A DNA stretch of 64,000 nt, from NCBI RefSeq assembly GCF_009725985.1, contig NZ_RCNR01000005.1, forward strand, positions 62,001 to 126,000, given 5' to 3'. A program made the translations under genes and the position numbers. Every line of letters starts with the position of its first letter. Within the stretch, counting starts at the first letter, position 1. This DNA comes from Zobellia amurskyensis. Its GTDB lineage: Bacteria; Bacteroidota; Bacteroidia; Flavobacteriales; Flavobacteriaceae. The notes beneath the pieces are model-generated. The model had not been told where the DNA came from. It made no database searches and saw only the letters and a list, made by a program, of their open reading frames with translations. Shown piece after piece: positions 5,662 to 46,685 of the stretch.

Positions 5662-5729
5662 GTTTTTACCAAGATTGTGATGGCAGTCAATAGAATAAAT
5701 CACTATTTTAGAGGTAAACGCTTAATACC

Positions 5730-6203: not shown

Positions 6204-6211
6204 TTTGTGCT

Positions 6212-6751
6212 TCAAGGAGATAATTCAAGTAATTTTATCATGGTATTATAATTTCGGGTAGTAGCCTCAACCTTTAATTTTCTTTCAATAAGGTTGTTGT
6301 TCAGTTTTGCTCTTCCGTATCCTGCCTTACAGAGCAGATACACACAATTATTTGTTATCTCAAAATCTTCATTCGTATAACGTTCAGAACCGAATACCTC
6401 TACAAACTCTTGTTTCGCTGGGTTTTTCAGCAAAACAAAATACACTTGTTTCTGGCCCATTGCATCCAAATCTGTATATGGGTTACCCTCAAATATGTTT
6501 TTAAACTGATTTTTGGTCTTTACTAAAACAGGCACATCAAAACCAAAAGTACTTTTGATATTCTCCGCAATTGAAGCTTCTAAAGTAACTGTACTATCTT
6601 CCTCACTTTGGAAAACCACATTACCACTTTGTATATAGGTTTTTACATTTAAAAAGTCCATCTCCGTTAAAATAGACCGCAACTCCGCCATAGGTACTTT
6701 TTTCTGGCCACTTACATTAATCCCTCTTAAAAGAGCAATATAGGATTTCAT
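6212..6751 (-). CDS. DUF1697 family protein
   Basis: A 179-residue soluble protein with the DUF1697 hallmark N-terminus (YIALLRGINVSGQKKVPMAELR, then YIQSGNVVF). The family is widespread, and its biochemical role is unknown to me. The start is immediately adjacent to the stop of the BaiN-like flavoprotein, so it is probably the last gene of the minus-strand run that begins in the maltose locus. Confidence 0.85.
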   Translation of the reverse strand: MKSYIALLRGINVSGQKKVPMAELRSILTEMDFLNVKTYIQSGNVVFQSEEDSTVTLEASIAENIKSTFGFDVPVLVKTKNQFKNIFEGNPYTDLDAMGQKQVYFVLLKNPAKQEFVEVFGSERYTNEDFEITNNCVYLLCKAGYGRAKLNNNLIERKLKVEATTRNYNTMIKLLELSP

Positions 6752-8035
6752 TTAAAAGCTTTTTGCGACAGCTTGGGCGGCAATAAAACCACCAGTCCAA
6801 GCATTTTGAAAATTGAACCCTCCCGTTATGGCATCTACGTCTATAACCTCACCTGCAAAGTACATACCCGGCAACTTCTTACTCTCGTATGTCTTAAAAT
6901 TAACTTCTTTTAAGTCAATACCTCCAGCGGTTACAAATTCTTCTTTAAAGGTACTTTTGCCATTAATTTTCAGCTCACATTCCGTAAGTTGACGTGCTAA
7001 TTTCTCCAATTGATTCTTGGTAATATCTGCCCATTTATCCGTTTCAGAGATATCTGATGCTCGCACAAGATTGGTCCACAAACGACGAGGCACTTCAACA
7101 GCCTTGGTACGCAATACCGTTTTTTTAGCCTCTATCTCTTTGATTTCAGAAAACAGCCCCATGAGGCCTTCAAAGTTATATTCAGGCAACCAATTAACCC
7201 GAATTTTAAATCGATATTCCATTCCGCTCAACAAACGAGCACCCCATGCGGACAGCTTTAAAATTGCTGGACCACTCAATCCCCAATGGGTAATGAGCAG
7301 CGGACCATCTGAAGTTAAAATAGCCGATTTACCGTTACTACTTTTTAATTTTGTGGTAATTTTTGAAATGTACACTTGGTTTTCAAAAACCTCAACTTGC
7401 GCTAGGGTGCTCACACCCGGTATGCCAGAAATACGCTCATCTTTACAGTTAAACGTAAATAAAGAAGGTACTGCGGGTACAATAGTATGTCCCAAGTTCT
7501 GCAACAGCTTCCATATTTTAGGATTGCTTCCCGTAGCGACCACAACTTTTTTAGATTGATACGTATGTTTAATGGTTGTAATCTGCCAGCCCATTTCAGC
7601 ACCTTCCATTGGAATAGACTCTATTTCCGAGACAGCACTATGCTTTAAAACCTTAATGCCCAAACGGTCGGCTTCGCCTAAAAAACAATCGATAATTGTT
7701 TGAGAAGAATCGGATTCAGGAAACATACGCCCGTCCGGTTCTATTTTTAGGGTTATACCCCTTTCTTCAAAAAAACCGACTGTATCTCCACTACAATAAG
7801 TATGAAAAGGTCCTAAAAGCTCCTTTTCTCCTCTGGGATAGCTTTTTGTCAATTCCCTTGGGTCAAATTCTGCATGGGTTACATTACACCGGCCTCCACC
7901 GGAAACTTTAACTTTCCCCAGAACATCCTTCCCACGTTCTAAAATTGCTATTTTTAAATGAGGCTTTGCTTCAGCAATATGAATTGCCGTGTAAAAACCG
8001 GCTGCACCCCCACCTATAACTATAACATCAAACAT
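6752..8035 (-). CDS. HI0933/BaiN-like NAD(P)/FAD-dependent oxidoreductase
   Basis: A 427-residue flavoprotein of the HI0933 (YhiN/BaiN) family. The dinucleotide-binding motif VIGGGAAG lies at residues 6-13. Family signatures VSGGGRCNVTH, PDGRMFPESDSSQ, THWGLSGPAILKLS and the C-terminal AGEVIDVDAITGGFNFQNAWTGG are all present, and the length is normal. The substrate is not evident. Its ATG overlaps the stop codon of the GDPD gene by one base (TAATG), indicating translational coupling. Confidence 0.88.
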   Translation of the reverse strand: MFDVIVIGGGAAGFYTAIHIAEAKPHLKIAILERGKDVLGKVKVSGGGRCNVTHAEFDPRELTKSYPRGEKELLGPFHTYCSGDTVGFFEERGITLKIEPDGRMFPESDSSQTIIDCFLGEADRLGIKVLKHSAVSEIESIPMEGAEMGWQITTIKHTYQSKKVVVATGSNPKIWKLLQNLGHTIVPAVPSLFTFNCKDERISGIPGVSTLAQVEVFENQVYISKITTKLKSSNGKSAILTSDGPLLITHWGLSGPAILKLSAWGARLLSGMEYRFKIRVNWLPEYNFEGLMGLFSEIKEIEAKKTVLRTKAVEVPRRLWTNLVRASDISETDKWADITKNQLEKLARQLTECELKINGKSTFKEEFVTAGGIDLKEVNFKTYESKKLPGMYFAGEVIDVDAITGGFNFQNAWTGGFIAAQAVAKSF

Positions 8036-8784
8036 TAATTTATGCGTTCAGGATAATTGGTAATGATACCGTCTACGCCAAATCTCTTCATCTGTAGAAT
8101 ATCTTGTGGTTCATTCACCGTCCAAGGATAAATTTTAAATCCGGCCTCTTTTATTTTGAGATTGTTCTCTGCTGTAAGCGATTTAAAACTGGGGTTAATA
8201 GCCTCGGCATTTAACTCTTTGCCAACGGCCAGAGCATCAAGTGGATCTTTACCGATTAATATGGCAATACGAACATTTGAATTTGCTTTGCGCATGGTTC
8301 GCAATTCATCCCATTCAAAACTAGAAATAATAAAATCGTCCAGTTTCCAGTTTCCAGCTTTCACCTCTGCCTCCATCATTTTATTAACATCCGTTGCCGT
8401 GTTCGTTCCTTTCAATTCAATATTTAATTGGGTTTTCCCTCCCATGACATCCAAAATCTCTTGAAGTGTAGGTATTTTATGCCCACCTTCCACGGTCAAA
8501 GCTTTCAACTCGGCCAGGGTATAATCTTCTATTTCTCCCTCTCCATCGGTCAACCGCTCTATGGTATCATCATGGAACACCACAATTTCTCCGCTTTTAA
8601 TCTTAAAAACATCAATTTCTAGCATATCCACACCCATTTCCATAGCCTTTTCAATAGAGGCGATAGTATTTTCGGTTTCATGCCCCATGGCACCACGGTG
8701 GCCAATTATTAACGGTTTATTATTTTCCATACAACTTGACGTGACTAAAACACAAAAGATAGCCAGAATTGATAACTTATTCAT
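8035..8784 (-). CDS. Glycerophosphodiester phosphodiesterase, lipoprotein
   Basis: A 249-residue enzyme of the GDPD TIM-barrel family, which hydrolyses glycerophosphodiesters to glycerol 3-phosphate and an alcohol. Catalytic and metal residues are visible: His29-Arg30 (GHRGAMGHETENT), Glu56 and Asp58 (LEIDVF) and His71 (FHDDTIERLT). The N-terminus is a lipoprotein signal with the lipobox ending at Cys18 (VTSSC), so it should be anchored in the envelope. It lies 6 bp after the GH13 gene; the link to sugar metabolism may only be shared transcription. Confidence 0.88.
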   Translation of the reverse strand: MNKLSILAIFCVLVTSSCMENNKPLIIGHRGAMGHETENTIASIEKAMEMGVDMLEIDVFKIKSGEIVVFHDDTIERLTDGEGEIEDYTLAELKALTVEGGHKIPTLQEILDVMGGKTQLNIELKGTNTATDVNKMMEAEVKAGNWKLDDFIISSFEWDELRTMRKANSNVRIAILIGKDPLDALAVGKELNAEAINPSFKSLTAENNLKIKEAGFKIYPWTVNEPQDILQMKRFGVDGIITNYPERIN

Positions 8785-32831: not shown

Positions 32832-35800
32832 ATGTCGTTATCAAAACTACAATTTCAAAGAAAAAATCTACTACCCGTGCATTTTAAATATACCCATATA
32901 AGTCTTTGCCTTGCCCTCATAATCTTTACTGCTTGCGGCAAGAAACAAGACTTTTTGTTTAGCAACCCTTCTGCCGCGGAAACAGGTATTACATTCAAAA
33001 ATACCCTAACAGAAACGGACGATTTAAATATATTAGACTATCTATATTTTTACAACGGAGGTGGCGTTGCCATTGGTGATATAGATAATGATGGCCTTCC
33101 TGATATTTTCTTTTCAGGGAACCAGGTTAAAAACAAGCTCTATCGCAATAAAGGTAACCTACAATTTGAGGACATCAGTAAAACAGCGGGTATTGAAGGT
33201 AATAGCACTTGGAACACCGGCTCCGTAATGGGCGATGTAAACGGTGATGGCCTTTTAGACATTTACGTATGCGCCGTGGTAGGCATTAACGGATTTAATG
33301 GATATAACGAACTGTTTCTAAACAATGGTGATGGCACCTTTACCGAAAGTGCCGCTAAATACGGCCTTGATTTTGACTCCTATAGTTCCAATGCCGCTTT
33401 TCTTGATTTTGATTTGGATGGTGATTTGGATATTTATCTCTTAAACCATGCCGTACACACCCAAGAATCTTTTGGCAAAGCCGATTTAAGACTGAAACGA
33501 AACTTTCAAACAGGAGACAAACTACTCCGTAATGATGGAGACAAATTTATCGATGTAAGTGAGACCGCTGGAATTTATGGTGGGGTAAACGGCTACGGAT
33601 TAGGATTGGCCGTTTCTGATTTTAACCAAGATGGTTACCCAGATATCTATGTAGGCAATGATTTTCATGAGGACGATTACTATTACTTAAACAATGGAGA
33701 CGGGACCTTCACGGAGAGTTCAAAACAATTTTTTGGGCATACCTCTCGGTTTTCAATGGGTAATGATGTGGCCGATATTAATCATGATGGTTGGCCCGAT
33801 TTAATTTCCCTGGACATGCTCCCTCAGAATGAAAAGGTTTTAAAATCCTCTGAAGGCGATGATAATGTACAGACTCAAAAGTTACGTACGGAACGTTATG
33901 GGTATGGGTACCAGTTCACCCGAAACATGCTGAATGTTAATCAGCAAAACAGCACTTTTCTAGAAACGGCACTCATGAGCGGTGTAGCTGCTACAGATTG
34001 GAGCTGGAGCGCTTTGTTTGGAGATTATGATCAAGATGGTGAGCAAGACCTATTTATATCCAACGGCATCCCCAAAAGACCTAACGATCTTGATTTTATC
34101 AATTTTGTAAGTAGCGAGCAGATTCAAAACAAAATGAACAACACCAAGCTTATGGACCAACAAGCTTTGGACAAAATGCCGAGCGGAAAAATCCACAACT
34201 TTGTATTTAAAGGTTCGCATAACTTAACTTTCAAAGATGAATCAGGGCAATGGATACTTAAAGACACCTTGGTTTCAGGAGCTACAGCCATGGGAGATCT
34301 TGACAATGATGGCGATTTGGATTTGGTGACCAATAACCTAAACGGAACGGCTACTCTGTATATTAACAAAACGGACAGTAAATCAAATTACCTGAAATTA
34401 AAATTTAAAAACATAGGAAAAAATACTTTTGGCCTAGGAACCAAAGTTTTCTCATATACCCAAGGCAAGTTGCAGTATAAGGAGCTCTATACTGTTAGAG
34501 GGTTTCAGGCTTCGTCCGAACCCATGGTTCATTTTGGATACGGAACTACAGAAAAAGTAGACTCTATTCAAGTAGTCTGGCCCAATGGCAGTTACCAAAC
34601 ACTAAAGGATATTGCTACCAATCAGACCATGATTGTGGAACCGGAAAACACAGTCAAGTTCAACTTTGCCAGCTTACTACCTGATGAAAAAATAATTTTT
34701 GAAAAAGAGGAGAACAACCTGGGTATTACTTTTAATCATATTGAGGACAATTACACGGATTTCAATCGTCAAAAATTGATTCCCTATCAGGTTTCGGACC
34801 GTGGTCCCGCAACTGCAATCGGCGATTTAAATGGCGATGGGAAGAACGATATTTTCTTTGGAGGTTCAAAATACATTCCTTCGCAAATCTATATTCAAAA
34901 CGATACAGCATTTGCACCGTTTCATGTGGCACAAATAGCTAAAGATTCTATTAAGGAAGATGTAACCGCTGTAATTGCAGATTTTAATTCGGACGAAAAG
35001 AATGATTTGATTATTGGTACAGGTGGCGCTGATTTTTATAATAAAATGGAACCTTTGCTTGATTCTTACTATACTCAGAATGACTCGGCTTTTATTCCCG
35101 CGCCGTTACCCGAGAATTTTCAGAATACCTCCATTCTAGCCCCCTATGATTTTGATAGCGATGGAGACCTTGATTTGTTCGTTGGAAGCCAAGCCATTTC
35201 AAACGACTTTGGAAAGACACCACAATCAGTTTTACTAACGAACGACAACGGTATTTTCTCTAATAAAAATGAAGAAGCGCTTACCAATTTAGGTATGGTT
35301 ACCGATGCCATTTGGAGCGATTTTAATTCAGATGGCACAAAAGACCTCATCGTTATTGGAGAATGGATATCGCCTACTTTTTTCAAGAATATTAACGGCC
35401 AACTAAATAAGGTTGATGTTATTCAAAAAAACTTAAACGGACTCTGGCAGACCATTGTTCCTTTTGACATTGATAACGATGGTGATACGGATTATTTACT
35501 GGGAAACTGGGGAAGTAACACTAAGTTTAAAGCTTCGGCAGAACACCCTATGAAAATGTATTATGGTGATTTTGACAAGAACAAACAAACCGAAACCATA
35601 ACAACGATTGAAAAAGGAGGCAAATACTATCCCATAGAGAGCTTAGATGGTCTTTCGTCTCAGCTAGTTTCCCTTAAAAAGAAATTCAACACTTACAACT
35701 CCTTTGCTGGCTCTACAATTGAGGACATTCTAGACAAAGAGATTTTAGAAGAAGCCAACATACTGGAAATTCATGAATTACGCTCAGGCTATTTAAAGAA

Positions 35801-37496
35801 CGAAAATGGCAAATTCAATTTTGTTCCTTTTCAAAATGAATTACAGGTGTCACCTATAATTTCTATGTTGTCTTATGATTTTGATGGCGATGGAAAAGAA
35901 GAAGTTTTAGCGGCAGGAAACTATTTTGGTGTTAAACCCTATCACGGTAGATTTGATTCTTTTGGAGGCGCCTTGATTAAAGGTGAAAATAGTGTAATTT
36001 TAAGCGCTAAAATCGGGTTAGACCTTAGCCAAAAATCTGTACGACATTTAAATATCGTAGACCTTAAAGGAGAAAGCTATCTTTTGGTCACTTTGAACAA
36101 CGACAACGCACAAATTTTTAGGCTGAAAAAAAATAAAAGACAAATGAAGAAGATTTTTATCGCATTACTATCGCTTGTTTTTGCGGTTTCATGTAAAGCT
36201 CCACAAAAAGAAGAACCCATAACCATTACCCCTGAAGACCTTAATGCTTCAATAAACCAGGTAACGGATATTATGATTCATGATATATTCTCCCCTCCCG
36301 TAGCCAGTAGAATATTTGCTTATCCAAATGTTGCAGCTTACGAAATTGTAGCAATGGCCAATGACGAATACAAACCCCTAGCCGGGCAATTAAATGGACT
36401 TACGCCAATTCCTGCTCCTGACACTACGCAAACTGTAAACTATGACCTTGCTGCAATCGTTGCGCATATGGAACTCAGCAAAAGACTTATATTTTCGGAA
36501 GACCGAATGGAAGCTTTGCGCGATAGTCTTTACACGATTTGGCAAGAAAAGAACCCTGTTCTGTTTACAAGTTCTAAAGACTACGGTTTACAAGTGGCAG
36601 ACCATATAGCCAAATGGATGAAAGAAGACAATTATGCACAAACGCGGACCATGCCAAAATTTACCGTAGATGCAGATGACGAAACCCGGTGGCAACCTAC
36701 GCCCCCAGCCTATATGGACGGTATTGAACCCCACTGGAACAAAATCAGGCCTTTTGCAATAGACTCTGCGGCACAGTTCAAGCCAATTCCGCCTCCAGCA
36801 TTTTCACTTGAGGAAGATTCACCTTTTTTCAAGGAACTTAAAGAAGTTTATGACATCAGTAATAAAATTACAGAGGAAGGTGATACTTCCGAAGAGATTC
36901 AAATTGCCCAATTTTGGGATTGTAACCCTTATGTTTCGGTTACGCGCGGGCACCTTATGTTCGCTACAAAAAAAATAACACCAGGCGCACACTGGATGGG
37001 TATTGCAAAAATTGCAGCACGTAAAACCAATAGTGACTTCCACCAAGCCTTGTACGCCTACACCAAGGCTTCTGTAGCCATGGCGGATGCTTTTATAAGC
37101 TGTTGGGACGAAAAGTACAGAAGTAATCTTATTCGCCCTGAAACCTTGATAAACCAGCACATAGATGACAGCTGGAAACCGGTACTACAAACACCACCTT
37201 TCCCTGAGTACACAAGTGGCCATAGTGTTGTTTCCGGAGCCGCATCGGTAGCCCTGACCGATGTTTTTGGTGAAAATTTTGCTTTTGATGACGATACCGA
37301 AGTACCCTACGGCCTACCAATCCGTAGTTTTACATCTTTTGAGCAAGCTGCCAATGAAGCTGCAATCAGTAGAATGTACGGAGGTATTCACTACCGGGCG
37401 GCAGTTGAAGTTGGTGTAAAACAAGGTAGAGACCTTGGTAGGTTCGTAGTTGAAAAACTTAACATGAAAAACAACAACGAAACAGCCCAAAACTAA
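32832..37496 (+). CDS. In-frame fusion: FG-GAP/ASPIC-UnbV lipoprotein (paralogue 3) plus vanadium-dependent haloperoxidase
   Basis: A 1554-residue open frame made of two normally separate lipoproteins. Residues 1-1104 repeat the paralogue plan: lipobox FTAC, FG-GAP motifs, ASPIC/UnbV (TVRGFQASSEPMVHFGYG, VVWPNG), more FG-GAP motifs, and a C-terminus aligning with the ends of paralogues 1 and 2 (NNDNAQIFRL). Residue 1105 onward is a complete haloperoxidase with its own lipoprotein signal. The join crosses eight A residues at 36126-36133. One more A would create TAA right there and leave the second ATG 8 nt downstream. I think the native state is two genes, or slippage yields both; a true fusion would carry an internal signal peptide. 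Confidence 0.75.
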   Translation: MSLSKLQFQRKNLLPVHFKYTHISLCLALIIFTACGKKQDFLFSNPSAAETGITFKNTLTETDDLNILDYLYFYNGGGVAIGDIDNDGLPDIFFSGNQVKNKLYRNKGNLQFEDISKTAGIEGNSTWNTGSVMGDVNGDGLLDIYVCAVVGINGFNGYNELFLNNGDGTFTESAAKYGLDFDSYSSNAAFLDFDLDGDLDIYLLNHAVHTQESFGKADLRLKRNFQTGDKLLRNDGDKFIDVSETAGIYGGVNGYGLGLAVSDFNQDGYPDIYVGNDFHEDDYYYLNNGDGTFTESSKQFFGHTSRFSMGNDVADINHDGWPDLISLDMLPQNEKVLKSSEGDDNVQTQKLRTERYGYGYQFTRNMLNVNQQNSTFLETALMSGVAATDWSWSALFGDYDQDGEQDLFISNGIPKRPNDLDFINFVSSEQIQNKMNNTKLMDQQALDKMPSGKIHNFVFKGSHNLTFKDESGQWILKDTLVSGATAMGDLDNDGDLDLVTNNLNGTATLYINKTDSKSNYLKLKFKNIGKNTFGLGTKVFSYTQGKLQYKELYTVRGFQASSEPMVHFGYGTTEKVDSIQVVWPNGSYQTLKDIATNQTMIVEPENTVKFNFASLLPDEKIIFEKEENNLGITFNHIEDNYTDFNRQKLIPYQVSDRGPATAIGDLNGDGKNDIFFGGSKYIPSQIYIQNDTAFAPFHVAQIAKDSIKEDVTAVIADFNSDEKNDLIIGTGGADFYNKMEPLLDSYYTQNDSAFIPAPLPENFQNTSILAPYDFDSDGDLDLFVGSQAISNDFGKTPQSVLLTNDNGIFSNKNEEALTNLGMVTDAIWSDFNSDGTKDLIVIGEWISPTFFKNINGQLNKVDVIQKNLNGLWQTIVPFDIDNDGDTDYLLGNWGSNTKFKASAEHPMKMYYGDFDKNKQTETITTIEKGGKYYPIESLDGLSSQLVSLKKKFNTYNSFAGSTIEDILDKEILEEANILEIHELRSGYLKNENGKFNFVPFQNELQVSPIISMLSYDFDGDGKEEVLAAGNYFGVKPYHGRFDSFGGALIKGENSVILSAKIGLDLSQKSVRHLNIVDLKGESYLLVTLNNDNAQIFRLKKNKRQMKKIFIALLSLVFAVSCKAPQKEEPITITPEDLNASINQVTDIMIHDIFSPPVASRIFAYPNVAAYEIVAMANDEYKPLAGQLNGLTPIPAPDTTQTVNYDLAAIVAHMELSKRLIFSEDRMEALRDSLYTIWQEKNPVLFTSSKDYGLQVADHIAKWMKEDNYAQTRTMPKFTVDADDETRWQPTPPAYMDGIEPHWNKIRPFAIDSAAQFKPIPPPAFSLEEDSPFFKELKEVYDISNKITEEGDTSEEIQIAQFWDCNPYVSVTRGHLMFATKKITPGAHWMGIAKIAARKTNSDFHQALYAYTKASVAMADAFISCWDEKYRSNLIRPETLINQHIDDSWKPVLQTPPFPEYTSGHSVVSGAASVALTDVFGENFAFDDDTEVPYGLPIRSFTSFEQAANEAAISRMYGGIHYRAAVEVGVKQGRDLGRFVVEKLNMKNNNETAQN
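36126..36133 (+). other. A8 homopolymer at the fusion junction (frameshift or slippage site)
   Basis: Eight consecutive A residues follow CTG, and the current reading is CTG AAA AAA AAT AAA. With nine the reading would be CTG AAA AAA AAA TAA, ending paralogue 3 exactly where its siblings end. Such tracts are prone to polymerase slippage, mutation and sequencing error. Confidence 0.7.
36144..37496 (+). CDS. Vanadium-dependent haloperoxidase (iodoperoxidase-like) lipoprotein, as an independent gene
   Basis: Read from its own ATG this is a 450-residue lipoprotein (MKKIFIALLSLVFAVSC) of the PAP2/vanadium haloperoxidase superfamily. All vanadate-binding motifs are exact: K324-x6-R331-P332 (KYRSNLIRP), S358-G359-H360 (PEYTSGH) and S409-R410-x5-H416 (SRMYGGIH). 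Tyr263, Trp321, Asp322 and Phe353 are also present. As I recall, these match in identity and number the active-site residues of Zobellia iodoperoxidase ZgVIPO1, which oxidises iodide with hydrogen peroxide. Iodide specificity is inference. The same sequence is the C-terminal part of the frame starting at 32832. The next gene begins 5 bp after the stop. Confidence 0.8.
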   Translation: MKKIFIALLSLVFAVSCKAPQKEEPITITPEDLNASINQVTDIMIHDIFSPPVASRIFAYPNVAAYEIVAMANDEYKPLAGQLNGLTPIPAPDTTQTVNYDLAAIVAHMELSKRLIFSEDRMEALRDSLYTIWQEKNPVLFTSSKDYGLQVADHIAKWMKEDNYAQTRTMPKFTVDADDETRWQPTPPAYMDGIEPHWNKIRPFAIDSAAQFKPIPPPAFSLEEDSPFFKELKEVYDISNKITEEGDTSEEIQIAQFWDCNPYVSVTRGHLMFATKKITPGAHWMGIAKIAARKTNSDFHQALYAYTKASVAMADAFISCWDEKYRSNLIRPETLINQHIDDSWKPVLQTPPFPEYTSGHSVVSGAASVALTDVFGENFAFDDDTEVPYGLPIRSFTSFEQAANEAAISRMYGGIHYRAAVEVGVKQGRDLGRFVVEKLNMKNNNETAQN

Positions 37497-37501
37497 GCGT
37501 C

Positions 37502-38401
37502 ATGTTCAAAAAAGTAGCGCTAATTGTAACCGCACTATTAGTAGGGGGAGCAATTTGGTATCTTTTTATCATGCCTCAAGATTACATGGTTCGTTTTCAG
37601 ACCAAAGCATTGCCGGGTACAGTGAACCAGATTGTAAAGTTTTGGGCAGGGCAAAAAAGTAATGCTCACTTTGAAGGACAAAACAGCCTATCCGATTTTA
37701 CTAATACACTTATTACAAATGATACAACACTCTCTTTCAATTGGCAAATAGCACCAATGAACGATTCCGTTTCGCAAGTAAAAGTCTATGTCACGGATAA
37801 CGAGAATAGTCTACAAAACAGAATACTAATTCCCTTTACCAGTACCGATTTTGAAAACCGCTCAAAAAGTACGGTAAAGGAGGTTTACTCACTTTTAAAA
37901 AGTCACCTTTCTAATTTTAAGACTACCATTATTGGCGAGGCTATCATTCCTGAGAAATATTGCGCTTGCGTTTCTCTCAAGAGCACACAATTGGAAAAAG
38001 TAAAAGGCATGATGGGTCACTATTCACGTCTCAGTGATTTTATTGCAAAAAATGGTATTAAGCCAGACGGGAGGCCTTTAGTAGAAGTTGTAAAATGGAA
38101 CACCCAAAACGATAGTATTGTCTATAACTTTTGCTTTCCCGTACTAAAAACAGATAGTCTTCCCACAAGCAAGGAGTTTGTTTACAAACAAATTAAGGAA
38201 AGAAAAGCCATCAAAGCCATATACAATGGAAATTACCTGACGTCTGATCGAGCTTGGTACGCACTAGTAGATTACGCCAATAAAAATGAGATTGAAGTTT
38301 CTAAAGAACCTTTTGAAGTTTTTCATACAAACCCAAATATGGGCGGAAACGAACTAGAGTGGAAAGCCGAAATTTTTATACCTATAAAAGCACAGAAATA
38401 G
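37502..38401 (+). CDS. Membrane-anchored protein with a GyrI-like/effector-binding C-terminal half
   Basis: A 299-residue protein with an N-terminal membrane anchor (VALIVTALLVGGAIWYLFI). An SRPBCC-like segment (PGTVNQIVKFWAGQ, about 35-140) leads into a C-terminal half that resembles GyrI-like small-molecule-binding domains (GRPLVEVVKWN, FCFPV, PNMGGNELEWKAEIFIPI). Domain assignment is from pattern only. It begins 5 bp after the haloperoxidase stop and belongs to the same operon. A ligand-sensing or scavenging role at the membrane is possible. Confidence 0.6.
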   Translation: MFKKVALIVTALLVGGAIWYLFIMPQDYMVRFQTKALPGTVNQIVKFWAGQKSNAHFEGQNSLSDFTNTLITNDTTLSFNWQIAPMNDSVSQVKVYVTDNENSLQNRILIPFTSTDFENRSKSTVKEVYSLLKSHLSNFKTTIIGEAIIPEKYCACVSLKSTQLEKVKGMMGHYSRLSDFIAKNGIKPDGRPLVEVVKWNTQNDSIVYNFCFPVLKTDSLPTSKEFVYKQIKERKAIKAIYNGNYLTSDRAWYALVDYANKNEIEVSKEPFEVFHTNPNMGGNELEWKAEIFIPIKAQK

Positions 38402-38439
38402 GAATAGAACTTACCTTTGCATTCATTAAATGTATTACA

Positions 38440-39306
38440 ATGAAAGTAATGGCAACAAGATTTTCGCTTCAAATCATAATTCTTTTTCTTTTCTACAGCT
38501 GTTCTAATCACGGCCAACTAGTCTATGTGACCAAGCTGCCCAAAAGCCTCAAGGAAAATTCCGGAATAGCCACTTATACGAATGATGCGGCTTGGTTCAT
38601 TGAGGATAGCGGTAATGACGATGACATTACAAAAGTGGATTACCAAGGAGAGATCCTAAAGGAATTTAAAGTAAAAAATGCCAAGAACCATGATTGGGAA
38701 GATCTTACCGAGGACAAAAAAGGCAATCTATATATTGGCGATTTTGGAAATAACGATAGTGACCGCAAAAATTTAGTTATTTACAAATTACCCAACCCTG
38801 AATACGAAACCGGAGACCACATTACCGCCGAACATATAACCTTTAAATATCCCGAACAAAAACATTTTCCGGCCAAAAAGAAAGAGCGTTTTTATGACGC
38901 CGAAGCTTTTTTCCACTACAACGACTACCTCTATATTTTCACAAAGAACAGGGCCAATCCGTTTACTGGCGAATCATTAATATATAGGGTTCCGGACGCC
39001 AAAGGAGATTATGATGCGGAATACTTGGGCAAGATAACCACGTGCGACGACTGGGACACTTGTAAGGTTACCTCTGCAGATATATCCCCGGATGGAAAAA
39101 CCGTAGTTCTATTAGGCTCAGGAAAGCTGTGGACCATATCTGAATTTGATTTGGAAAATTTACCTGAAAGCACTCTAAAAGAAACAGATTTAATGGTGCG
39201 CACACAGCTAGAATCAGTAACTTTTATAGATAACTCCACACTTTTACTATCTGACGAGGAAACAAAAAAAGAGGGAAGAAATTTATATAAGTACACACTT
39301 AAATAA
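38440..39306 (+). CDS. Lipoprotein, probable beta-propeller, unknown function
   Basis: A 288-residue lipoprotein (signal MKVMATRFSLQIIILFLFYSC). I place the start at this ATG, or the one three codons later, because the frame from 38359 overlaps the previous gene without adding a sensible signal. The body repeats short strand motifs such as KGNLYIGDFGNND, DYLYIFTKN and DGKTVVLLGSGKLWTIS, as in six- or seven-bladed propellers. Two Cys in TTCDDWDTCK may form a disulphide. It is the last gene of the operon, convergent with the phosphoesterase/barrel gene. Confidence 0.65.
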   Translation: MKVMATRFSLQIIILFLFYSCSNHGQLVYVTKLPKSLKENSGIATYTNDAAWFIEDSGNDDDITKVDYQGEILKEFKVKNAKNHDWEDLTEDKKGNLYIGDFGNNDSDRKNLVIYKLPNPEYETGDHITAEHITFKYPEQKHFPAKKKERFYDAEAFFHYNDYLYIFTKNRANPFTGESLIYRVPDAKGDYDAEYLGKITTCDDWDTCKVTSADISPDGKTVVLLGSGKLWTISEFDLENLPESTLKETDLMVRTQLESVTFIDNSTLLLSDEETKKEGRNLYKYTLK

Positions 39307-39336: not shown

Positions 39337-42300
39337 CTAGAAACCAAAACCTACACCAAAGGAGAAGCGCAGGCCATCATCACTGTTGAAAAGCGCCAAG
39401 CGTGCCGTGACAATATCTGCTCCATTTAGAAAAAACCCGCCTCCGTAAGAGGTATGCCATTCTTTGGAGTTTTCCATAGGTAGCCAAACCCTTCCATAAT
39501 CAAAGCCACCATAGAACCCCATGGAAAGTGGCAAGAGCTGTGTTTTTATTTCCCTAAGGCTATATCTAATATCTGTATTTTGATAGTATGATTTTTTACC
39601 GGTAAACCTTTGGTTTCTAAAGCCACGCAATCCATCAATACCACCAATACTGGCCGCCTGATAAAATTCATAATCATCACCTATATTAAAATGTGCCTTC
39701 CATTTTGTAGCTAAAACCAATCTACCACTTGGTATCAACTTATAATCAAAAGCAAGACTGGGAATGACATATCCAAAGGCATTTCCGTTTTCAGTGCTTC
39801 TCTTATAACCTGCTGCAAGCGATGTGGACATTCCCATGGTCGGAAATGCGGCATTGTCCGTATTGGCATAAGAATATTCGGCATCAACACCTACAAAATT
39901 ATTTCTAGTCTCTTCTCCATTTGCCTGGTAATAGGTGTTTATAAACCTATCATCACTTTCTTCCACATCAATAGATTCGTATGAAACACCAGTTTTAAAC
40001 TTAGCCCCATATTGACCTCTCCATACCAAAGCCGGTGCAAATTTAAGGGTCTGCAAACGCACGCGGTTGTAATCCATTCCTACATCGTCATCCAAATTCT
40101 CGGTACTATTACCAAAATCAAAGAAATTGATAGCAAAATTAGGACTCGTAAAACGTGCTCCTAAATGTAAATTCCAGTTTTCAAAAATATGGGCAAATTC
40201 ACCACTATACCCTAGTTCAAAACCGCTGGTCGCAAAATAAAATGAAGCATCTACTTTATGTTGTTGGGTAAAAGGGTTTTGTCTAAAACCATTGTACGTA
40301 TAGGTATCACTAACCCCTACCTTAACCCCATCATCCGGATTGTAACCAATGGTAGGTATAATTTGATTTACCGAATTCCGGATTTGCAAGGGCAAGTAGT
40401 TGTTGGTATTATAATCATCCGTAAGCTTAAGCTTTGCTCCACCCAACTCCTCTACGGTGTTCTTCTTCGTTTTATAATCGTAAACAGCTATGTTACCACC
40501 TTGTCCAACTCTGTAAATATCATTATTCTGGCCACCTACCAAACGTACCTTAATAGCACTTCTTTCGTCTCCATTTACCTCAAAAATATCATCATCGTCC
40601 AGACCGTAAACCCAAACTTCTTTGGTACTATCCTTATTGAATACTTTATTAAAAAACAGCTTGTCTTTCTCTCCCTTTATATTCCTATAGACTTTTATCT
40701 CAGTCTCTTTATCATTTAAAATATTCACTTCAAACCAATCATCTTTATCGGTTCCCACAACTACTGCATATTTGTTCAGAACACCATAATAGGTTTGCGC
40801 TGTCTCTTCAATTTTAGAAGCTCGCGCCAATAAAATTTGTTTTATTTCAGTTACCGTTTCATCTCTGACCTCTTTAGGAAAATGGGTAAATGCTTTATCA
40901 ATTACTTCCTCAGTAAGATTCTCCCGAATAAATTTGGCTTGTTCTTCCCACTCTTGGGGAGTTGTTTCCGTCAAAAGTGCCATATCCAACACATAGGTTT
41001 TAGGCGAAGAATTAAAACCTTTTACGTTTCTTATTTCTTCATTAAAGCCCTCCATTAACTTTAGAGCAGGAATAATTCTCGTGGCAAGGTTCATAAAAAA
41101 ACCATCGCCATGTTTTGAATAGACCATATCACGATCTCTAGGCACTGGCTTGTAAAGAACTTTATCATTCTTCTCATCTACAAATTCTGCCCATCGCCAT
41201 TGATCCACATGACGATCCCAATCGCCCATAACCATATCAAAAAGTCGTGCCCTTAAATATAATTCAGAATCTACAGCATATTTCTCGTCGTCCCGCAAAT
41301 CTTCTAGCATGCTGTCCGTACTCTTAAGTTCGTTAGCATAACCAAAGCTTTTTAAATCGCCATGACCATCGCCAGCATGTTCTTCTATCATATACAGTTC
41401 GTCTCCAAAAGATTCATTGAAGTCTTTTAACGCTGGTTGTTTTGGCACATAATAAAGTACGGGGTTGGTATGATACAAATCAACCGCATCAGACAGAACA
41501 GCCGTTGTAAAAGGTCCGTATGGGTGAGATCCCGTGTAAAAATCGAGAAGAAAATTTTCGGTATACGTGTTTTCAAAATCACCCATTACGTATTGCTCCT
41601 GAAAAGCCATGGCCTGTAAATATAGCTCCGCATCTTTACGAAGTGCACGCATTACGAACTCCTTACCCTCTTTATCCCTTAACCGCAACGATTTTGATTG
41701 ATGTCCTCCGCCTTTGTGCAGAGCAACAAGACCGCCCATAAGAGTATCTAAATTTACCGTTGGAGCCTCCACTTTTGTGGCGTAGTATTTCCGATACCGG
41801 TCTCCCCAAAGGAATTTAAAGAAACCACTTCTATCTATCTCATCTTCCGAATAGACCGAAGCCTTTACCGTAGCCGGAAATTTTTCATCATACTTACCTT
41901 TATAAGTAGTTCTGTCTGGAGGTAAGACCTGAGCAGTAAATAAAAATTCCTCATCCTTATTATCATCCACTCCAAAATACCTAACTTGAGAAGAGCCATC
42001 CGTATATACTTCTAAAGTAGCGTAGCCTCTCTGCCCAGTGGAAAACTTACTTCCGTTCAGCAAACGAGTTGCTCCCGTCTTAGCTCCGGACCCACTCACT
42101 ATTTGTGGTGTATTCTCCTCAACAATATACTGCAACGTATGTTCATGTCCTGATGCCAAAATAACTTTTTCCGAATACTGCGCAAAGGTCAACAGGCGTT
42201 TTCTTAGCTCGGTATAACGCTTATTACCCATATCCTCTATTGATGCCCCGGTTGTTCTTCTCAAAACATTTATAAAGCTTCCCAAAATAGGTAACGGCCC

Positions 42301-43062
42301 TATCTTTCCTTTAGGATACAAATGGGTCCTTGCGGAATACTGTCCACCATGTGCGCCATAGCTGAACATAGGGTGATGCATTGCTATTATAGTAGTTCTC
42401 TGTCTGTTGTCCTTGATTTCGTCCTCAAGTTCTAACCAAAATTTATCCCGTGTCTTAATATCACATTTATCGTTAATATCCGGGCGCTTGTCCCAATTGG
42501 TCAAGTACCACTCCGTATCAATAGCAATAACAGTTATATTATCGTTTACCTCAATGGTTTCTATAGGGCAGCCATCTTCAGGAAAAAAGACATCCTTACT
42601 ATCAAGTTTTTCCTGAATGTAATCTTGCTCCCGTTCTAGGCCAACTAACCCCTCCGTATACCAATCATGATTTCCCGGTATAAAAATAGGGTTGCCCTTA
42701 AAGTTTTCTAGAGTTTTCAATTGGGCGTCCAAATCGTTCTTGGCCTTAAGATATGCAGCGGTAGAGTCTTTTGGGTCTGGAAGACCAGCAGGATAAATAT
42801 TATCTCCTAAAAACAGAGCGGTACTATTCTTGTTTGCTCCATCTAATTTATCCTTAAAAATCTTAAGCGCATCGTTCATACCGTTCATGGGAGACAGGCC
42901 TGCATCTCCTATAAGGTAAAACGTATGGGCTACTTCTTTGGTTGTGGGAACATCTTTTTTACCTACTTCACTTGCATATTTGGTTTTGGAGGTTGCACAA
43001 CCCACAAACAATGTCACCAATGCTATTAAAGCAAAATGTTTACCAAATAGAATACTATTCAT
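39337..43062 (-). CDS. Metallophosphoesterase / kinase-like / surface-antigen beta-barrel protein
   Basis: A 1241-residue lipoprotein-type protein (lipobox LFVGC, Cys22) in three parts. Residues 45-360 are a calcineurin-like phosphoesterase with Asp53, GDN (86-88), GNHD (130-133), His229-His230 and GHEH (305-308). Residues 440-700 contain a glycine-rich KGGGHQS, a basic strand VMRALRK, GDWDRH (613-618) and PRDRD (641-645), a pattern reminiscent of HipA/Fam20-like kinases. From about 900 the C-terminus is a BamA/TamA-like barrel ending in FSFGVGFGF. I chose the ATG at 43062 because the extension to 43095 fills the divergent promoter. Confidence 0.75.
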   Translation of the reverse strand: MNSILFGKHFALIALVTLFVGCATSKTKYASEVGKKDVPTTKEVAHTFYLIGDAGLSPMNGMNDALKIFKDKLDGANKNSTALFLGDNIYPAGLPDPKDSTAAYLKAKNDLDAQLKTLENFKGNPIFIPGNHDWYTEGLVGLEREQDYIQEKLDSKDVFFPEDGCPIETIEVNDNITVIAIDTEWYLTNWDKRPDINDKCDIKTRDKFWLELEDEIKDNRQRTTIIAMHHPMFSYGAHGGQYSARTHLYPKGKIGPLPILGSFINVLRRTTGASIEDMGNKRYTELRKRLLTFAQYSEKVILASGHEHTLQYIVEENTPQIVSGSGAKTGATRLLNGSKFSTGQRGYATLEVYTDGSSQVRYFGVDDNKDEEFLFTAQVLPPDRTTYKGKYDEKFPATVKASVYSEDEIDRSGFFKFLWGDRYRKYYATKVEAPTVNLDTLMGGLVALHKGGGHQSKSLRLRDKEGKEFVMRALRKDAELYLQAMAFQEQYVMGDFENTYTENFLLDFYTGSHPYGPFTTAVLSDAVDLYHTNPVLYYVPKQPALKDFNESFGDELYMIEEHAGDGHGDLKSFGYANELKSTDSMLEDLRDDEKYAVDSELYLRARLFDMVMGDWDRHVDQWRWAEFVDEKNDKVLYKPVPRDRDMVYSKHGDGFFMNLATRIIPALKLMEGFNEEIRNVKGFNSSPKTYVLDMALLTETTPQEWEEQAKFIRENLTEEVIDKAFTHFPKEVRDETVTEIKQILLARASKIEETAQTYYGVLNKYAVVVGTDKDDWFEVNILNDKETEIKVYRNIKGEKDKLFFNKVFNKDSTKEVWVYGLDDDDIFEVNGDERSAIKVRLVGGQNNDIYRVGQGGNIAVYDYKTKKNTVEELGGAKLKLTDDYNTNNYLPLQIRNSVNQIIPTIGYNPDDGVKVGVSDTYTYNGFRQNPFTQQHKVDASFYFATSGFELGYSGEFAHIFENWNLHLGARFTSPNFAINFFDFGNSTENLDDDVGMDYNRVRLQTLKFAPALVWRGQYGAKFKTGVSYESIDVEESDDRFINTYYQANGEETRNNFVGVDAEYSYANTDNAAFPTMGMSTSLAAGYKRSTENGNAFGYVIPSLAFDYKLIPSGRLVLATKWKAHFNIGDDYEFYQAASIGGIDGLRGFRNQRFTGKKSYYQNTDIRYSLREIKTQLLPLSMGFYGGFDYGRVWLPMENSKEWHTSYGGGFFLNGADIVTARLALFNSDDGLRFSFGVGFGF

Positions 43063-43101: not shown

Positions 43102-44304
43102 ATGCCGGATTTACTATCGAAAACCGAAGAATTTGCAATCAACCTGCTAGTCAAAGATTTAGATACCAACTATTTGTATCATAACCTCAGGCACACACAG
43201 CGAGTTGTCAAAAGTACTAAAGAATTGCTTGGTTTTTATAACTTAAATGCCATTGATAGTGACGCAATTACACTTGCTGCGTGGCTTCATGATACTGGCT
43301 ATACACGTGGCGTAGAAAATCACGAAGAAAGCAGTTGCATTATAGCCAAGGAATTTCTTACGGATCAAGACTGCAATTTACAAACCATTGAAACGGTCTG
43401 TAGCCTTATCATGGCCACAAAAAAAGGCTATGAACCGCAGAACCTTATGGAAGAGATAATTAGAGATGCGGATGCATCTCACTTGGCGCAATCCAGTTAC
43501 GAGGAAACCTGCGAGATGTTGCGTCAAGAGCTTCAACTATTAGAAATTGCAGAATTTTCACCAAAAGAATGGCGACGCGCCAATATTAAGATGTTCCAGA
43601 CCGAGCATCGTTTTTATACGGAATACGCCATAAAGAACTGGCAAGAAGGAAAGGACGGCAACCTTAGAAAGTTGGTGAAGCGCGATAAAAAGCAAAAAAA
43701 GACACGTAAAAAGGAAGAGCTTAAAATTCAGCTGAAGAACCAAAGTCCGGAAAGAGGTATACAGACCATGTTTCGTGTTACCATGCGTAACCACCTAAAA
43801 TTAAGTGATATTGCAGATACCAAAGCGAACATTCTTCTGTCCGTAAATGCAATTATTATCTCGTTGATGCTGTCCAATCTTATTCCAAAATTAGATAATC
43901 CCTCAAACGACTATCTAGTGATTCCTGCGGGTATTTTTGTGCTATTTAGTGTTGTTTCCATGATTATGTCCGTTATGGCCACACGGCCCAATGTTACTAG
44001 CGGGGAGTTTACCAAGGAAGACGTTAACCAAAAGAAAGTGAACTTATTGTTCTTCGGTAATTTTCATAAAATGAAACTTGAGGATTATGAATGGGCCATT
44101 CAAGAACTGATTAAAGACCAGAAATATGTCTACGATTCCTTAACCAAAGATCTCTACTTTTTAGGCTTGGTATTGGACAGAAAGTATAAACTACTGCGTT
44201 GGACATACACCATCTTTATGATTGGAATGACCCTGTCTGTAATCGCATTTTTTGTAGCACTGAAATTTTACGGACCAGAAAGAATAATAGAGTTGCCGAC
44301 CTAG
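43102..44304 (+). CDS. HD-domain protein with C-terminal Pycsar-effector-like (PycTM/DUF5706) membrane module
   Basis: A 400-residue protein. Residues 1-180 form an HD phosphohydrolase domain: His31 (NLRHTQRV), His63-Asp64 (WLHDTGY), His74 (NHEES) and Asp122/Asp124 (IRDADASH). A basic linker (190-215, KRDKKQKKTRKKEE) leads to the DUF5706-type module: SDIADTKANILLSVNAIIISLML (236 onward) with membrane segments at about 243-262, 272-293 and 365-388. In Pycsar defence such modules are the membrane-disrupting effectors triggered by cyclic pyrimidine nucleotides. No cyclase gene is in this window. The stop overlaps the convergent GAF gene by 4 bases. Confidence 0.78.
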   Translation: MPDLLSKTEEFAINLLVKDLDTNYLYHNLRHTQRVVKSTKELLGFYNLNAIDSDAITLAAWLHDTGYTRGVENHEESSCIIAKEFLTDQDCNLQTIETVCSLIMATKKGYEPQNLMEEIIRDADASHLAQSSYEETCEMLRQELQLLEIAEFSPKEWRRANIKMFQTEHRFYTEYAIKNWQEGKDGNLRKLVKRDKKQKKTRKKEELKIQLKNQSPERGIQTMFRVTMRNHLKLSDIADTKANILLSVNAIIISLMLSNLIPKLDNPSNDYLVIPAGIFVLFSVVSMIMSVMATRPNVTSGEFTKEDVNQKKVNLLFFGNFHKMKLEDYEWAIQELIKDQKYVYDSLTKDLYFLGLVLDRKYKLLRWTYTIFMIGMTLSVIAFFVALKFYGPERIIELPT

Positions 44305-46685
44305 GCCTTCAACTCGCTCATAAGGTCATCGTACGTATAGGTTCTTTCATTATTGTTCTCCTTGGTCTTATAGAGTATGTCCGCCCTTATGGCTTTCAGT
44401 CCGCTAACACCTTGTAAACCTTCGAGCTCAACAATCTCTACCTTTCCGGTAAAGTATCCTTTGGTACGAAGGAAAGTGATATACCTAAGATATTCTAGTT
44501 CGTCTCTTTTCTGCGAATACACAATGACCATTTTACCAGCCTGTGTTAAACGCTCGTTGGTTCCTTTTATATAGGATTTATCAATACGCTTTTTGATTAT
44601 CTCGTAACGGGCATTGTAAGTACCATCTACATCAAAACGTTTCTCGTCCATTCTAAAACGGATAGAAAGTGATGTACTGTACACCAGTATAAGCGAAGCC
44701 ACATCTAAAGGCACTGGAAGTTTAGGCTTTAAGGCGTAATGTGCATTTTCCATTTCACACATGACCTGCAACTGCCACAAGCGAAGATTATTAAGGTAAA
44801 GCATATCAAAATCGCGATCACCTACAATTTCCTCACCAATGTACATATTGTGCTCTACACCATCCGTCTTATACCTTTCAAAGTAATGAGGAAACATGGC
44901 TTGAGCGCTCTTTTGTTTTTTATCGATTAAACCGGCCAACTTCATATTGATCTGCGTGACACTCTCATCGTAATTACGCCTGTGATCATAATATGATTCC
45001 GTACCCATATCAACGGAAGATTCATAGGAAAGAATCAGGTTTTTAAGGTTATCATCAGATTTTTTTAGATGAGAGAAAACAGGATTTATTTCATCCATCA
45101 CAAAATTAAATATAGCCTGCTCACTATTGGTATGTAGACTTTCTTTAATACTGTCCATATGGTTCTCCACCCTAAACATCAACTCTTCATAAATTGGCAA
45201 CTTACTCTTCTGCCAAGCTTCTTCAATCACCTTAATAATTGTAGAAAGCTGAATCATTAAATCGCGCTGAATTGCAATATTTCTGGCCTGAGAAGAATTT
45301 TTTATATCAATTTGCCCATACAAAGGATATACGTCTTTAAAGACAATTTCCTTAAAAGTAGGGTTTCTACCTTCTGTACCATCCTTTACAAAGCGCTTGG
45401 CCTCTTCTTCAAAACGCCAGTATACGGAGTCGTGAACAGATGTACATTCATTTTGAATAACAGCATCGATCAAGTTGCTTTCCTCTGTTTTCGACCTCAA
45501 TACGGCCGATACAATAAAAGGCATTATATCCTCTAGCTTATTGGCATTGACACTATTAAGCGCATTAACCTCATAAGCCACAAGCTCCAAGACACCCAAA
45601 AGCTGTCCTTTTTGTGCGATGGGCGCTAAAATAGCACTCTTAACACCTTGTTCTTTTAAACCATTAAAAAGAGACATTTCGTCAGCAGATTCATAATACC
45701 GATCTACATCGGAAATAGCAAAATAACTATTTTCCTCCAATAGTTTACTGTATGATTTTTTGCATAATGAACTAGTACAGGAAACCGAATCCTTATCTCC
45801 TAAAAGAAAGCTTTCCATGCCATTGGCATACACTTTTTCAAAGCGATTATCTTTGGCGTTATACTCTACAAAACCAGCTTTAATATTAGGCGTATTAAAG
45901 AACGATCTAAAAGTTTCCTGTAAATCGCTCATAAAACTTTCGCTGCTTCGCTTGTCATTGGCGATTAGACTAGATTTTATTTCAGAAATGGAATGTTCTG
46001 CCGTTACATCAAACATATTAGAGATGACAAAACCTTTTGAAATAAAACTATGGGGCGGTATTTTTTCCTTCCACAGGTCTATATTTTCAAAATTATCCAA
46101 CAACTCGTCAACATCTTTTCGGGTAAGTTCCTTTGCTTTATCCGTAGGTAAAATTTCCATAAAATCTGCATTGTACAGAATTCTATAATGGCGCATTACC
46201 CCATTCTTGTCCGGAATATCATAAAAAAACGGTCTTTTAAAATCAAAATTGAAACCGTAATGAAAATTAAGGATTACCGTACACGCCACAATATACATTT
46301 GGTGCTCGGGTAAATTCCGCATTTCTGGCAAGAAGTCTTCACCTCCTGCGTCTTTTAATATTCTTCTAAATCTTTTAGAGGAATTAAAAATGATATTGTT
46401 ATAAGGCAAAGAAGCTGCCTTTATTTCATTGTTGGTCAGAACCTCTGAAAAGATATCCTGCAAAATAATATCAATGACATCTTTATGCTTTTCTAGTAAA
46501 GTAACATCACTAAAACCATCGCGAAGTTCTGGATAGGGTGCCGCTATTTTTAAAATACGCTGCGCCATCTTGGCCGTTGTAACATTGTCACTTTTGGCCA
46601 TGACATCGTATTGCCTCAAAAGCTTATCAAAGCTAATGAGCTGGGTAATTGGTAAATCTCCTTCGTAGTTTTTCTCCATTCTCAT
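44301..46685 (-). CDS. Large GAF-domain protein of unknown function
   Basis: A 794-residue soluble protein. The N-terminal third is alpha-helical and unassigned. A GAF-type sensor domain spans about 245-410 (FFNTPNIKAGFVEYN, SAILAPIAQKGQLLGVLELVAYE). The C-terminal half is mostly helical and ends in a receiver-like fold (KMVIVYSQKRDELEYLRYITFLRTKGYF, ...YTYDDLMSELKA). There is no HTH, kinase or cyclase motif that I can recognise. GAF domains often bind cyclic nucleotides, which makes its convergent overlap with an HD-PycTM gene notable. ATGs at 46685 and 46679 are equally possible starts. Confidence 0.65.
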   Translation of the reverse strand: MRMEKNYEGDLPITQLISFDKLLRQYDVMAKSDNVTTAKMAQRILKIAAPYPELRDGFSDVTLLEKHKDVIDIILQDIFSEVLTNNEIKAASLPYNNIIFNSSKRFRRILKDAGGEDFLPEMRNLPEHQMYIVACTVILNFHYGFNFDFKRPFFYDIPDKNGVMRHYRILYNADFMEILPTDKAKELTRKDVDELLDNFENIDLWKEKIPPHSFISKGFVISNMFDVTAEHSISEIKSSLIANDKRSSESFMSDLQETFRSFFNTPNIKAGFVEYNAKDNRFEKVYANGMESFLLGDKDSVSCTSSLCKKSYSKLLEENSYFAISDVDRYYESADEMSLFNGLKEQGVKSAILAPIAQKGQLLGVLELVAYEVNALNSVNANKLEDIMPFIVSAVLRSKTEESNLIDAVIQNECTSVHDSVYWRFEEEAKRFVKDGTEGRNPTFKEIVFKDVYPLYGQIDIKNSSQARNIAIQRDLMIQLSTIIKVIEEAWQKSKLPIYEELMFRVENHMDSIKESLHTNSEQAIFNFVMDEINPVFSHLKKSDDNLKNLILSYESSVDMGTESYYDHRRNYDESVTQINMKLAGLIDKKQKSAQAMFPHYFERYKTDGVEHNMYIGEEIVGDRDFDMLYLNNLRLWQLQVMCEMENAHYALKPKLPVPLDVASLILVYSTSLSIRFRMDEKRFDVDGTYNARYEIIKKRIDKSYIKGTNERLTQAGKMVIVYSQKRDELEYLRYITFLRTKGYFTGKVEIVELEGLQGVSGLKAIRADILYKTKENNNERTYTYDDLMSELKA

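Follow-up and report, generated by a model that had tools for sequence, protein, structure and literature searches.

The window analysed here is a 64,000-nucleotide stretch of the genome of Zobellia amurskyensis (contig NZ_RCNR01000005.1, positions 62,001 to 126,000), and its reverse strand encodes a protein (39337-43062) in which a metallophosphoesterase (MPE) domain, a middle domain whose predicted structure is almost certainly a kinase fold, and an Omp85-type barrel follow one another in a single polypeptide. The middle domain shares the fold and layout of the CotH, HipA, and Fam20 kinases but is a family of its own, because no match to the profiles of these three families reaches its cut-off. 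Members of this kinase-fold family are present in 112 of 296 Bacteroidota genomes and in 61 of 139 genera.

Domain layout and predicted fold of the middle domain

The gene is a single open frame of 1241 residues counted from its ATG, with an alternative TTG start 33 bases upstream. A sequence-only reading of this DNA had proposed a phosphatase, a kinase-like domain, and a BamA-like barrel in one polypeptide, which is borne out by the open frame, the match to PF00149, the kinase-fold model, and the Omp85 barrel (Table 1). The glycine-rich loop, the basic strand, GDWDRH (residues 613-618), and PRDRD lie where that reading had placed them, and its numbering of Asp616 and Asp645 was confirmed from the sequence; the distance between phosphatase and barrel, however, is not about 260 but about 500 residues, since the kinase fold (~430-765) is followed by a beta-rich segment (~766-890). 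The middle region is covered by no Pfam or NCBIfam family, and a sequence search of the PDB with the whole protein returned no match. The nearest relative among the matches listed is that of Zobellia russellii (94% over the middle domain).

Table 1. Features of the kinase-fold protein and of its neighbours, in window coordinates
Feature	Position	Strand	Basis
Whole gene: lipoprotein signal, MPE, kinase fold, beta-rich segment, and Omp85 barrel, 1241 residues	39337..43062	-	Open frame; same build, by flank length, in 139/193 distinct frames
Signal peptide ending in lipobox-like VGC (Cys22)	42997..43062	-	Sequence
MPE domain, residues 45-375 (GDAG, GDNIY, GNHD, MHHP, GHEH)	41938..42930	-	PF00149; patterns; Foldseek match to PDB 3tgh
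Predicted kinase-fold domain, residues ~430-765	40768..41775	-	AlphaFold2 model and structure matches
Glycine-rich loop region GGLVALHKGGGHQSKSL, residues 443-459	41686..41736	-	Conservation of G451-G453 and Q455
Beta3 strand EFVMRALRK with R472 and K476, residues 468-476	41635..41661	-	R472 in 103/115, K476 in 108/115 rows
Catalytic-loop-like GDWDRHVDQWRW, residues 613-624 (Asp616)	41191..41226	-	D616 in 62/64 far MPE-fused rows; register with CtkA, HipA, and CotH
Metal-site-like PRDRD, residues 641-645	41128..41142	-	D643 and D645 in 64/64 far MPE-fused rows; register with CotH P-x-D-x-D
Beta-rich segment between kinase fold and barrel, residues ~766-890	40393..40767	-	DSSP of full-length model
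16-stranded Omp85-type barrel, residues ~898-1241; GLRGF motif at 1144-1148	39340..40371	-	NCBIfam, DSSP, Foldseek
Divergent partner: HD domain and PycTM membrane domain, 400 residues	43102..44304	+	PF18967 (E 9.7e-38), PF01966 (E 9.8e-6)
Convergent neighbour: SdiA-regulated/Vgb-like beta-propeller, possibly exported	38359..39306	+	PF24684 and PF06977, weak, both below cut-off

An AlphaFold2 model of residues 395-800, computed from an alignment of 80 sequences of which the others are 63-94% identical to the window protein, has a mean predicted local distance difference test score (pLDDT) of 85.2 and a predicted template-modelling score (pTM) of 0.83. When this segment was searched against the PDB with Foldseek, CtkA of Helicobacter pylori ranked first (E 7e-4, probability 1.00), followed by COQ8A, PI4K-II, HipT, Rio2, and the Golgi casein kinase (Fam20), with two chains at E 0.001. 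A structural aligner, which re-aligns Foldseek's own candidates and is not independent of that search, returned kinases in all of its best 50 rows (Z 9.9-15.2), including PI4K-II-beta (Z 15.2, 251 residues, 4.0 A), CotH of Bacillus cereus (Z 15.0, 248 residues, 3.9 A), CtkA (Z 12.6, 226 residues, 4.3 A), HipA (Z 11.5, 226 residues, 4.8 A), and Fam20A (Z 10.6, 238 residues, 5.1 A). The model is therefore kinase-like, as had been anticipated, and the best matches include PI4K-II and CtkA in addition to the expected HipA, Fam20, and CotH. The proposed assignment to a HipA/Fam20/CotH type holds for the shared fold and the layout of the motifs, not for membership by the CotH, HipA, or Fam20 profiles.

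The sequence comparisons with known kinases are individually weak, yet the register of the catalytic loop appears to agree across CtkA, Fam20, HipA, and CotH. A profile of 88 diverse members placed the motif DmllgDwDRhedqW on the stretch DTLLGNFDRHNGNW of CtkA, at an E-value of 0.18 and as the second of ten mostly chance matches. With HHalign, P was 0.0018 against a HipA_C alignment and 0.0021 against a CotH alignment (30 loci each) versus 0.24-0.70 against seven unrelated alignments; the HipA subset of 23 long sequences alone gave 0.007. PRDRD falls in register with the P-x-D-x-D metal motif of CotH in these alignments, which cover only the later parts of the fold, and the position of the beta3 Lys was not located by the HHalign profile.

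When the 88 members were scanned individually against Pfam, 52 families appeared at E <= 1, most of them surely by chance. Fam20C reached 8e-4 in one member; neither CotH (PF08757; two of 88 members at E <= 1, best 0.016) nor HipA_C (PF07804; three of 88, best 0.16) had a match above cut-off. In a search of 198 genomes with the Fam20C profile (PF06702), the sole match at E <= 0.001 is a member of the kinase-fold family (E 4.8e-4), which at 20.4 bits stays under the cut-off of 26.8. One member matched Fam20 of Caenorhabditis elegans at E 0.033 and also an ABC-transporter binding protein at E 0.003.

Motif residues of the kinase-fold domain are retained in diverged homologues. In an alignment of 115 rows of far (diverged) homologues, in which the window protein itself stands twice (P and L009), conservation is high in the glycine loop (G451 89%, G452 90%, G453 83%, Q455 86%), at K476 (94%) and E560 (93%), in and around the catalytic loop (D609 98%, D614 97%, D616 90%, R617 95%, Q621 90%, W622 97%), and at D643 (91%), D645 (90%), G654 (100%), and R747 (100%). 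Judged from the aligned sequences, the conservation of these motifs is far above chance, and GDWDRH and PRDRD, both singled out by the sequence-only reading, are kept in far homologues. All 64 far MPE-fused rows retain R472, K476, D643, and D645, and 62 of them D616; the six standalone members retain all five residues. Members with a barrel but no MPE are looser (D616 in 28, D643 in 26, and D645 in 24 of 35). E560 is a candidate for the Glu that in kinases pairs with the beta3 Lys; the beta3 strand here carries R472 and K476.

CotH kinases act outside the cytosol or on the spore coat. The window family resembles them (PF08757; PDB 5jd9, 5jda) in fold and metal motif but has a catalytic-loop motif of its own (GDWDRHxDQW) and is fused to an MPE and a barrel. 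Type II PI4Ks (PDB 9hhm, 4yc4) provide the best structural match but are eukaryotic lipid kinases with ~10% identity. HipA and CtkA (PF07804; PDB 3akk, 4pu5) share an [ND]-x-D-x-H catalytic loop in register, and CtkA leads the Foldseek matches; these are toxin-antitoxin or effector kinases, whereas the window family is predicted to be exported and membrane-anchored. The Fam20 secretory kinases (PDB 4kqa, 5wrs), which act outside the cytosol, have GN-x-DRH in place of GDWDRH and differ in that the window family stays under the Fam20C cut-off. A description of the kinase-fold domain, of its other builds, or of its partner genes was not found in the literature searched, which consisted mostly of other than subscription papers.

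Builds, distribution, and topology

Relatives of the window protein are encoded on 544 genome-contig stretches, of which the best 80 were used. When 193 distinct frames are sorted by flank length, 139 are MPE-kinase-barrel proteins, 38 kinase-barrel proteins (including three cut or broken MPE-fused ones, L062, L092, and L113), 10 carry the kinase fold with a short tail (including L119, cut by a contig end, and L160, which has a barrel match), and six consist of the kinase fold alone. The fold is thus found without a barrel in the six standalone and about eight of the ten short-tailed frames, and it likely exists on anchors other than that of the window protein, namely a barrel without MPE, a lipoprotein, or a single membrane helix. 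The genome of Z. amurskyensis has three copies of the family. Five of 72,556 plasmid records contain a member, annotated as hypothetical protein in four and with no gene listed there in one; none was found in phage records.

Short-tailed genes may be clustered, with three adjacent ones in L126 (531, 550, and 586 residues) and two divergent ones in L127 (552 and 538 residues); one gene in each of these loci lacks Asp616. One standalone member has weak matches to the PDC-M03A models of PADLOC around its catalytic loop (best E 1.9e-4). In L092, from Maribacter litopenaei, the frame (5680-8301) begins inside the MPE, and the 5' part of the gene is seemingly out of frame or lost.

The MPE domain matches PF00149 at residues 47-246 (E 6e-8, 33.8 bits versus a cut-off of 21.5) and, by Foldseek, PDB 3tgh. 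Each of the patterns GDxG, GDNxY, GNH[DE], and GHxH is present in 130-132 of the 139 long frames, and the HHP-type pattern, as written for the scan, in 64. The barrel matches NCBIfam Omp85_fam at E 8e-14, below the family cut-off. A model of residues 42-1241 (pLDDT 77.8, pTM 0.67), too poor to position the domains relative to each other, retrieved BamA first (E 6.7e-10) and TamA at 1.5e-8, and 16 barrel strands were counted from its DSSP list. Pfam detected no POTRA domain at E <= 1; no search of residues 766-890 alone was made.

A fusion of MPE and Omp85 as such is already known, because it was published as the 'Metallo' subfamily by Heinz & Lithgow 2014 (PMC4104836), who also defined a 'noNterm' subfamily and listed Omp85 builds without POTRA. 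'Metallo' proteins likewise carry PF00149 N-terminal to an Omp85 barrel with no recognised POTRA. That paper terms PF00149 a metalloprotease, and its main text does without the word kinase; in the window protein, by contrast, PF00149 is a phosphoesterase domain, separated from the barrel by a predicted kinase fold. The 'noNterm' group, which has a related barrel, may correspond to the kinase-barrel build. A Riemerella virulence MPE (Niu 2021) was considered as an example of the same build and rejected, as it is probably the 68-kDa MPE dependent on the type IX secretion system that is tabulated in another paper.

The pattern [GASN]CAT occurs within the first 150 residues of 75/76 close and 35/63 far long frames. 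A crude test for a lipobox-like site or hydrophobic stretch at the N terminus was positive in 151 of the 193 frames, that is, in 111 of 139 MPE-kinase-barrel, 24 of 38 kinase-barrel, and all short-tailed (10/10) and standalone (6/6) frames. In the six standalone frames, basic residues at the start are followed by a hydrophobic stretch that resembles an inner-membrane anchor without cleavage. Of the 38 kinase-barrel frames, 21 begin with a hydrophobic segment and lack a lipobox, by eye often a cleavable signal peptide, and six of the ten short-tailed frames have a lipobox. Because such N-terminal features occur across the builds, the family looks extracytoplasmic.

Omp85 barrels have both ends in the periplasm, and the surface-export signal of Bacteroidota is acidic. 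Positions +3 to +6 after the Cys hold no acidic residue in 27/27 close and 29/35 far signals (those recognised by the signal pattern, out of 76 close and 63 far frames), which argues against surface export. The window protein is very likely anchored in the outer membrane with its domains predicted to face the periplasm.

Conserved neighbours of the kinase-fold gene

The most consistent neighbour is the divergent HD-PycTM gene (PADLOC PycTM model, E 7e-20), which begins 6 bases beyond the upstream TTG start of the kinase-fold gene. Clustering of the neighbours in 160 loci places this group in 112 of them (78/80 close, 34/80 far), with 84 of its 115 members upstream and divergent and a median distance of 5 bp between the frames. 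PycTM is present in 71 of 80 genomes with the family (picked from the 112 with a match after same-genus repeats were dropped) versus 7 of 80 without it (taken in handle order from 184; Fisher P 1.7e-26, ignoring relatedness). PycTM frames of at least 380 residues, the length that HD-PycTM needs, occur in 48 versus 3 of these genomes; the short frames may represent either split partners or genuine Pycsar effectors. Of 108 kinase-fold matches, 54 have PycTM within 10 kb (53/80 genomes). A functional link between the kinase-fold family and HD-PycTM is highly probable, and because of the co-occurrence, PycTM matches may be miscalled as defence.

In the Pycsar anti-phage system a PycTM effector stands beside a PycC cyclase; no cyclase was found among the six window neighbours scanned. 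A class III nucleotide cyclase group adjoins the kinase-fold gene in seven of 80 far loci (L131, L137, L168, L170, L173, L180, and L194); the cyclase of L168 carries tetratricopeptide repeats and weakly matches PycC models (E 2.9e-5).

A second recurrent neighbour is PPK1, which lies within 10 kb of 21 of the 108 kinase-fold matches, in 18 of 80 genomes and 11 families, and within 20 kb of the kinase-fold gene in 27 of 80 genomes. The number of pairs within 10 kb expected by chance is ~0.8, assuming genomes of 4.2 Mb and ignoring contig breaks and relatedness. In at least 16 genomes, PycTM and PPK1 genes are no more than 6 kb apart, including pairs away from the kinase-fold gene in four (G005, G066, G087, and G152), and orders such as HD-PycTM, PPK1, propeller, kinase-fold gene recur (L148, L182, L184, L186, and L187). 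A functional link of the family to PPK1 is somewhat favoured by this evidence. Counted by eye, second copies of PPK1 are present in 33 of 80 genomes with the family versus 15 of 80 without it (the latter all from family f17), and the copy next to the kinase-fold gene is, in several genomes, the shorter of the two.

Among the neighbours in the 80 far loci, named from one scanned representative per group, are an SdiA-regulated/phytase-like propeller (25), PPK1 (17), a GAF-like protein (10), a SixA-like phosphatase (9), PAP2 (8), a histidine kinase (7), and the class III cyclase (7). The group of the window's own propeller is found in 74 of 80 close and 2 of 80 far loci. No common partner of the standalone genes emerged among the six neighbour proteins scanned. 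CotH was considered as a genomic partner after two adjacent cases (G070 and G019) and dropped, with two of 61 listed CotH matches in genomes with the family within 10 kb; in a control, CotH and PPK1 were this close in 1 of 38 cases, and that one is inside a kinase-fold locus.

Elsewhere in the window, a 794-residue protein without Pfam or NCBIfam match (44301-46685, reverse strand) belongs to a conserved group whose members neighbour the kinase-fold gene in 71 close and 10 far loci; one of these members gives a weak GAF signal. A single frame of 1554 residues (32832-37496, forward strand) joins an FG-GAP/ASPIC protein to a PAP2/haloperoxidase-like lipoprotein start from ~36144; since stops precede the lipoprotein start in L039 and L040 and eight consecutive A stand shortly before it in the window, the long frame may result from a frameshift or a sequencing error.

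Possible role and competing explanations

That the window protein is an outer-membrane-anchored, periplasm-facing protein of phosphoryl transfer and hydrolysis, in a module linked to polyphosphate metabolism, has about an even chance. The kinase-fold domain would phosphorylate a lipid, glycan, or protein of the envelope near the inner face of the outer membrane, the MPE would remove that phosphate, and one anchored protein would set the phosphorylation state within the polyphosphate-linked module. Catalytic activity of the kinase-fold domain as a phosphotransferase is similarly poised between yes and no.

Several observations weigh against this role. Non-kinase matches of similar E-value, at chance level, also turned up in the sequence comparisons, and the seven short HipA-like kinases alone gave an HHalign P of 0.32. 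One of D616, D643, and D645 is absent in 17 of the 115 rows. The position of R472, presumed by comparison with Fam20C and PI4K sequences to be that of the beta3 Lys (Lys271 of Fam20C), is occupied by Arg in 103 of 115 rows. ATP is scarce in the periplasm. PPK1 is about as common in genomes without the family (72/80) as in those with it (75/80), so that its position, not its presence, discriminates between them; in 62 of the 80 genomes that carry the family, no PPK1 turned up within 10 kb of the kinase-fold gene, and the PPK1 of Z. amurskyensis itself is unlinked to that gene (C30, C97).

With Arg in place of the presumed beta3 Lys, activity therefore remains putative and a pseudokinase is possible. 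The fold may serve as a sensor that binds a nucleotide, lipid, or polyanion, or it may catalyse another transfer, leaving the MPE as the only phosphate enzyme. SelO and SidJ are kinase-fold proteins with other chemistry, and the degenerate kinase-barrel members fit such a loss. Nevertheless, the near-invariance of D616 and the strict retention of D643, D645, R472, and K476 in far MPE-fused rows go beyond the need of a dead site, and this explanation appears less probable than an active enzyme.

A periplasmic kinase driven by polyphosphate is unlikely, although it would account for several of the difficulties. PPK1 would make polyphosphate in the cytosol, at the inner membrane the HD-PycTM protein would control or pass it, and the outer-membrane protein would phosphorylate envelope molecules from polyphosphate or a related polyanion instead of ATP, with the MPE reversing the reaction. 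If true, such a donor would explain kinase activity in a compartment poor in ATP, the strict retention of Arg472, Lys476, and other basic residues in the MPE-fused build, and the presence of PPK1 in the same operon in part of the phylum.

The remaining alternatives concern the barrel and the fold itself. A barrel that carries the MPE and the kinase fold to the cell surface in a type Vd-like manner, to act on outside phosphate compounds, was the original view of patatin-Omp85 proteins and is one option for 'Metallo' proteins in PMC4104836. The missing acidic signal speaks against such a surface passenger, as does PlpD, whose patatin domain was found only in the periplasm (PMC11116518). PlpD likewise keeps an enzyme domain in the periplasm on an Omp85 barrel but has a single patatin-like lipase domain instead of two enzyme domains, and display at the surface is quite improbable. 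Just as improbable is a BamA-like insertase or secretion pore with merely regulatory enzyme domains. This is the most conservative view in PMC4104836 and agrees with an Omp85 barrel bearing an RGF motif, but POTRA was not detected by Pfam, the kinase fold also exists without a barrel in standalone and short-tailed frames, and many neighbours are phosphate or nucleotide genes. A chance resemblance to kinases, compatible with a middle domain outside all Pfam and NCBIfam families and with modest Foldseek E-values, is extremely unlikely given the kinases in all of the best structure rows and the agreement in catalytic-loop register.

The window protein represents a large Bacteroidota family of kinase-fold proteins that are probably exported, and the published 'Metallo' subfamily of Omp85 proteins is reinterpreted. 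PycTM is found here in an apparent housekeeping partnership, not only as a defence effector. The co-occurring HD-PycTM and the linked PPK1 suggest an undescribed envelope phosphate module, which bears on the phosphate donor of extracytosolic kinases and on the role of polyphosphate in the bacterial envelope.

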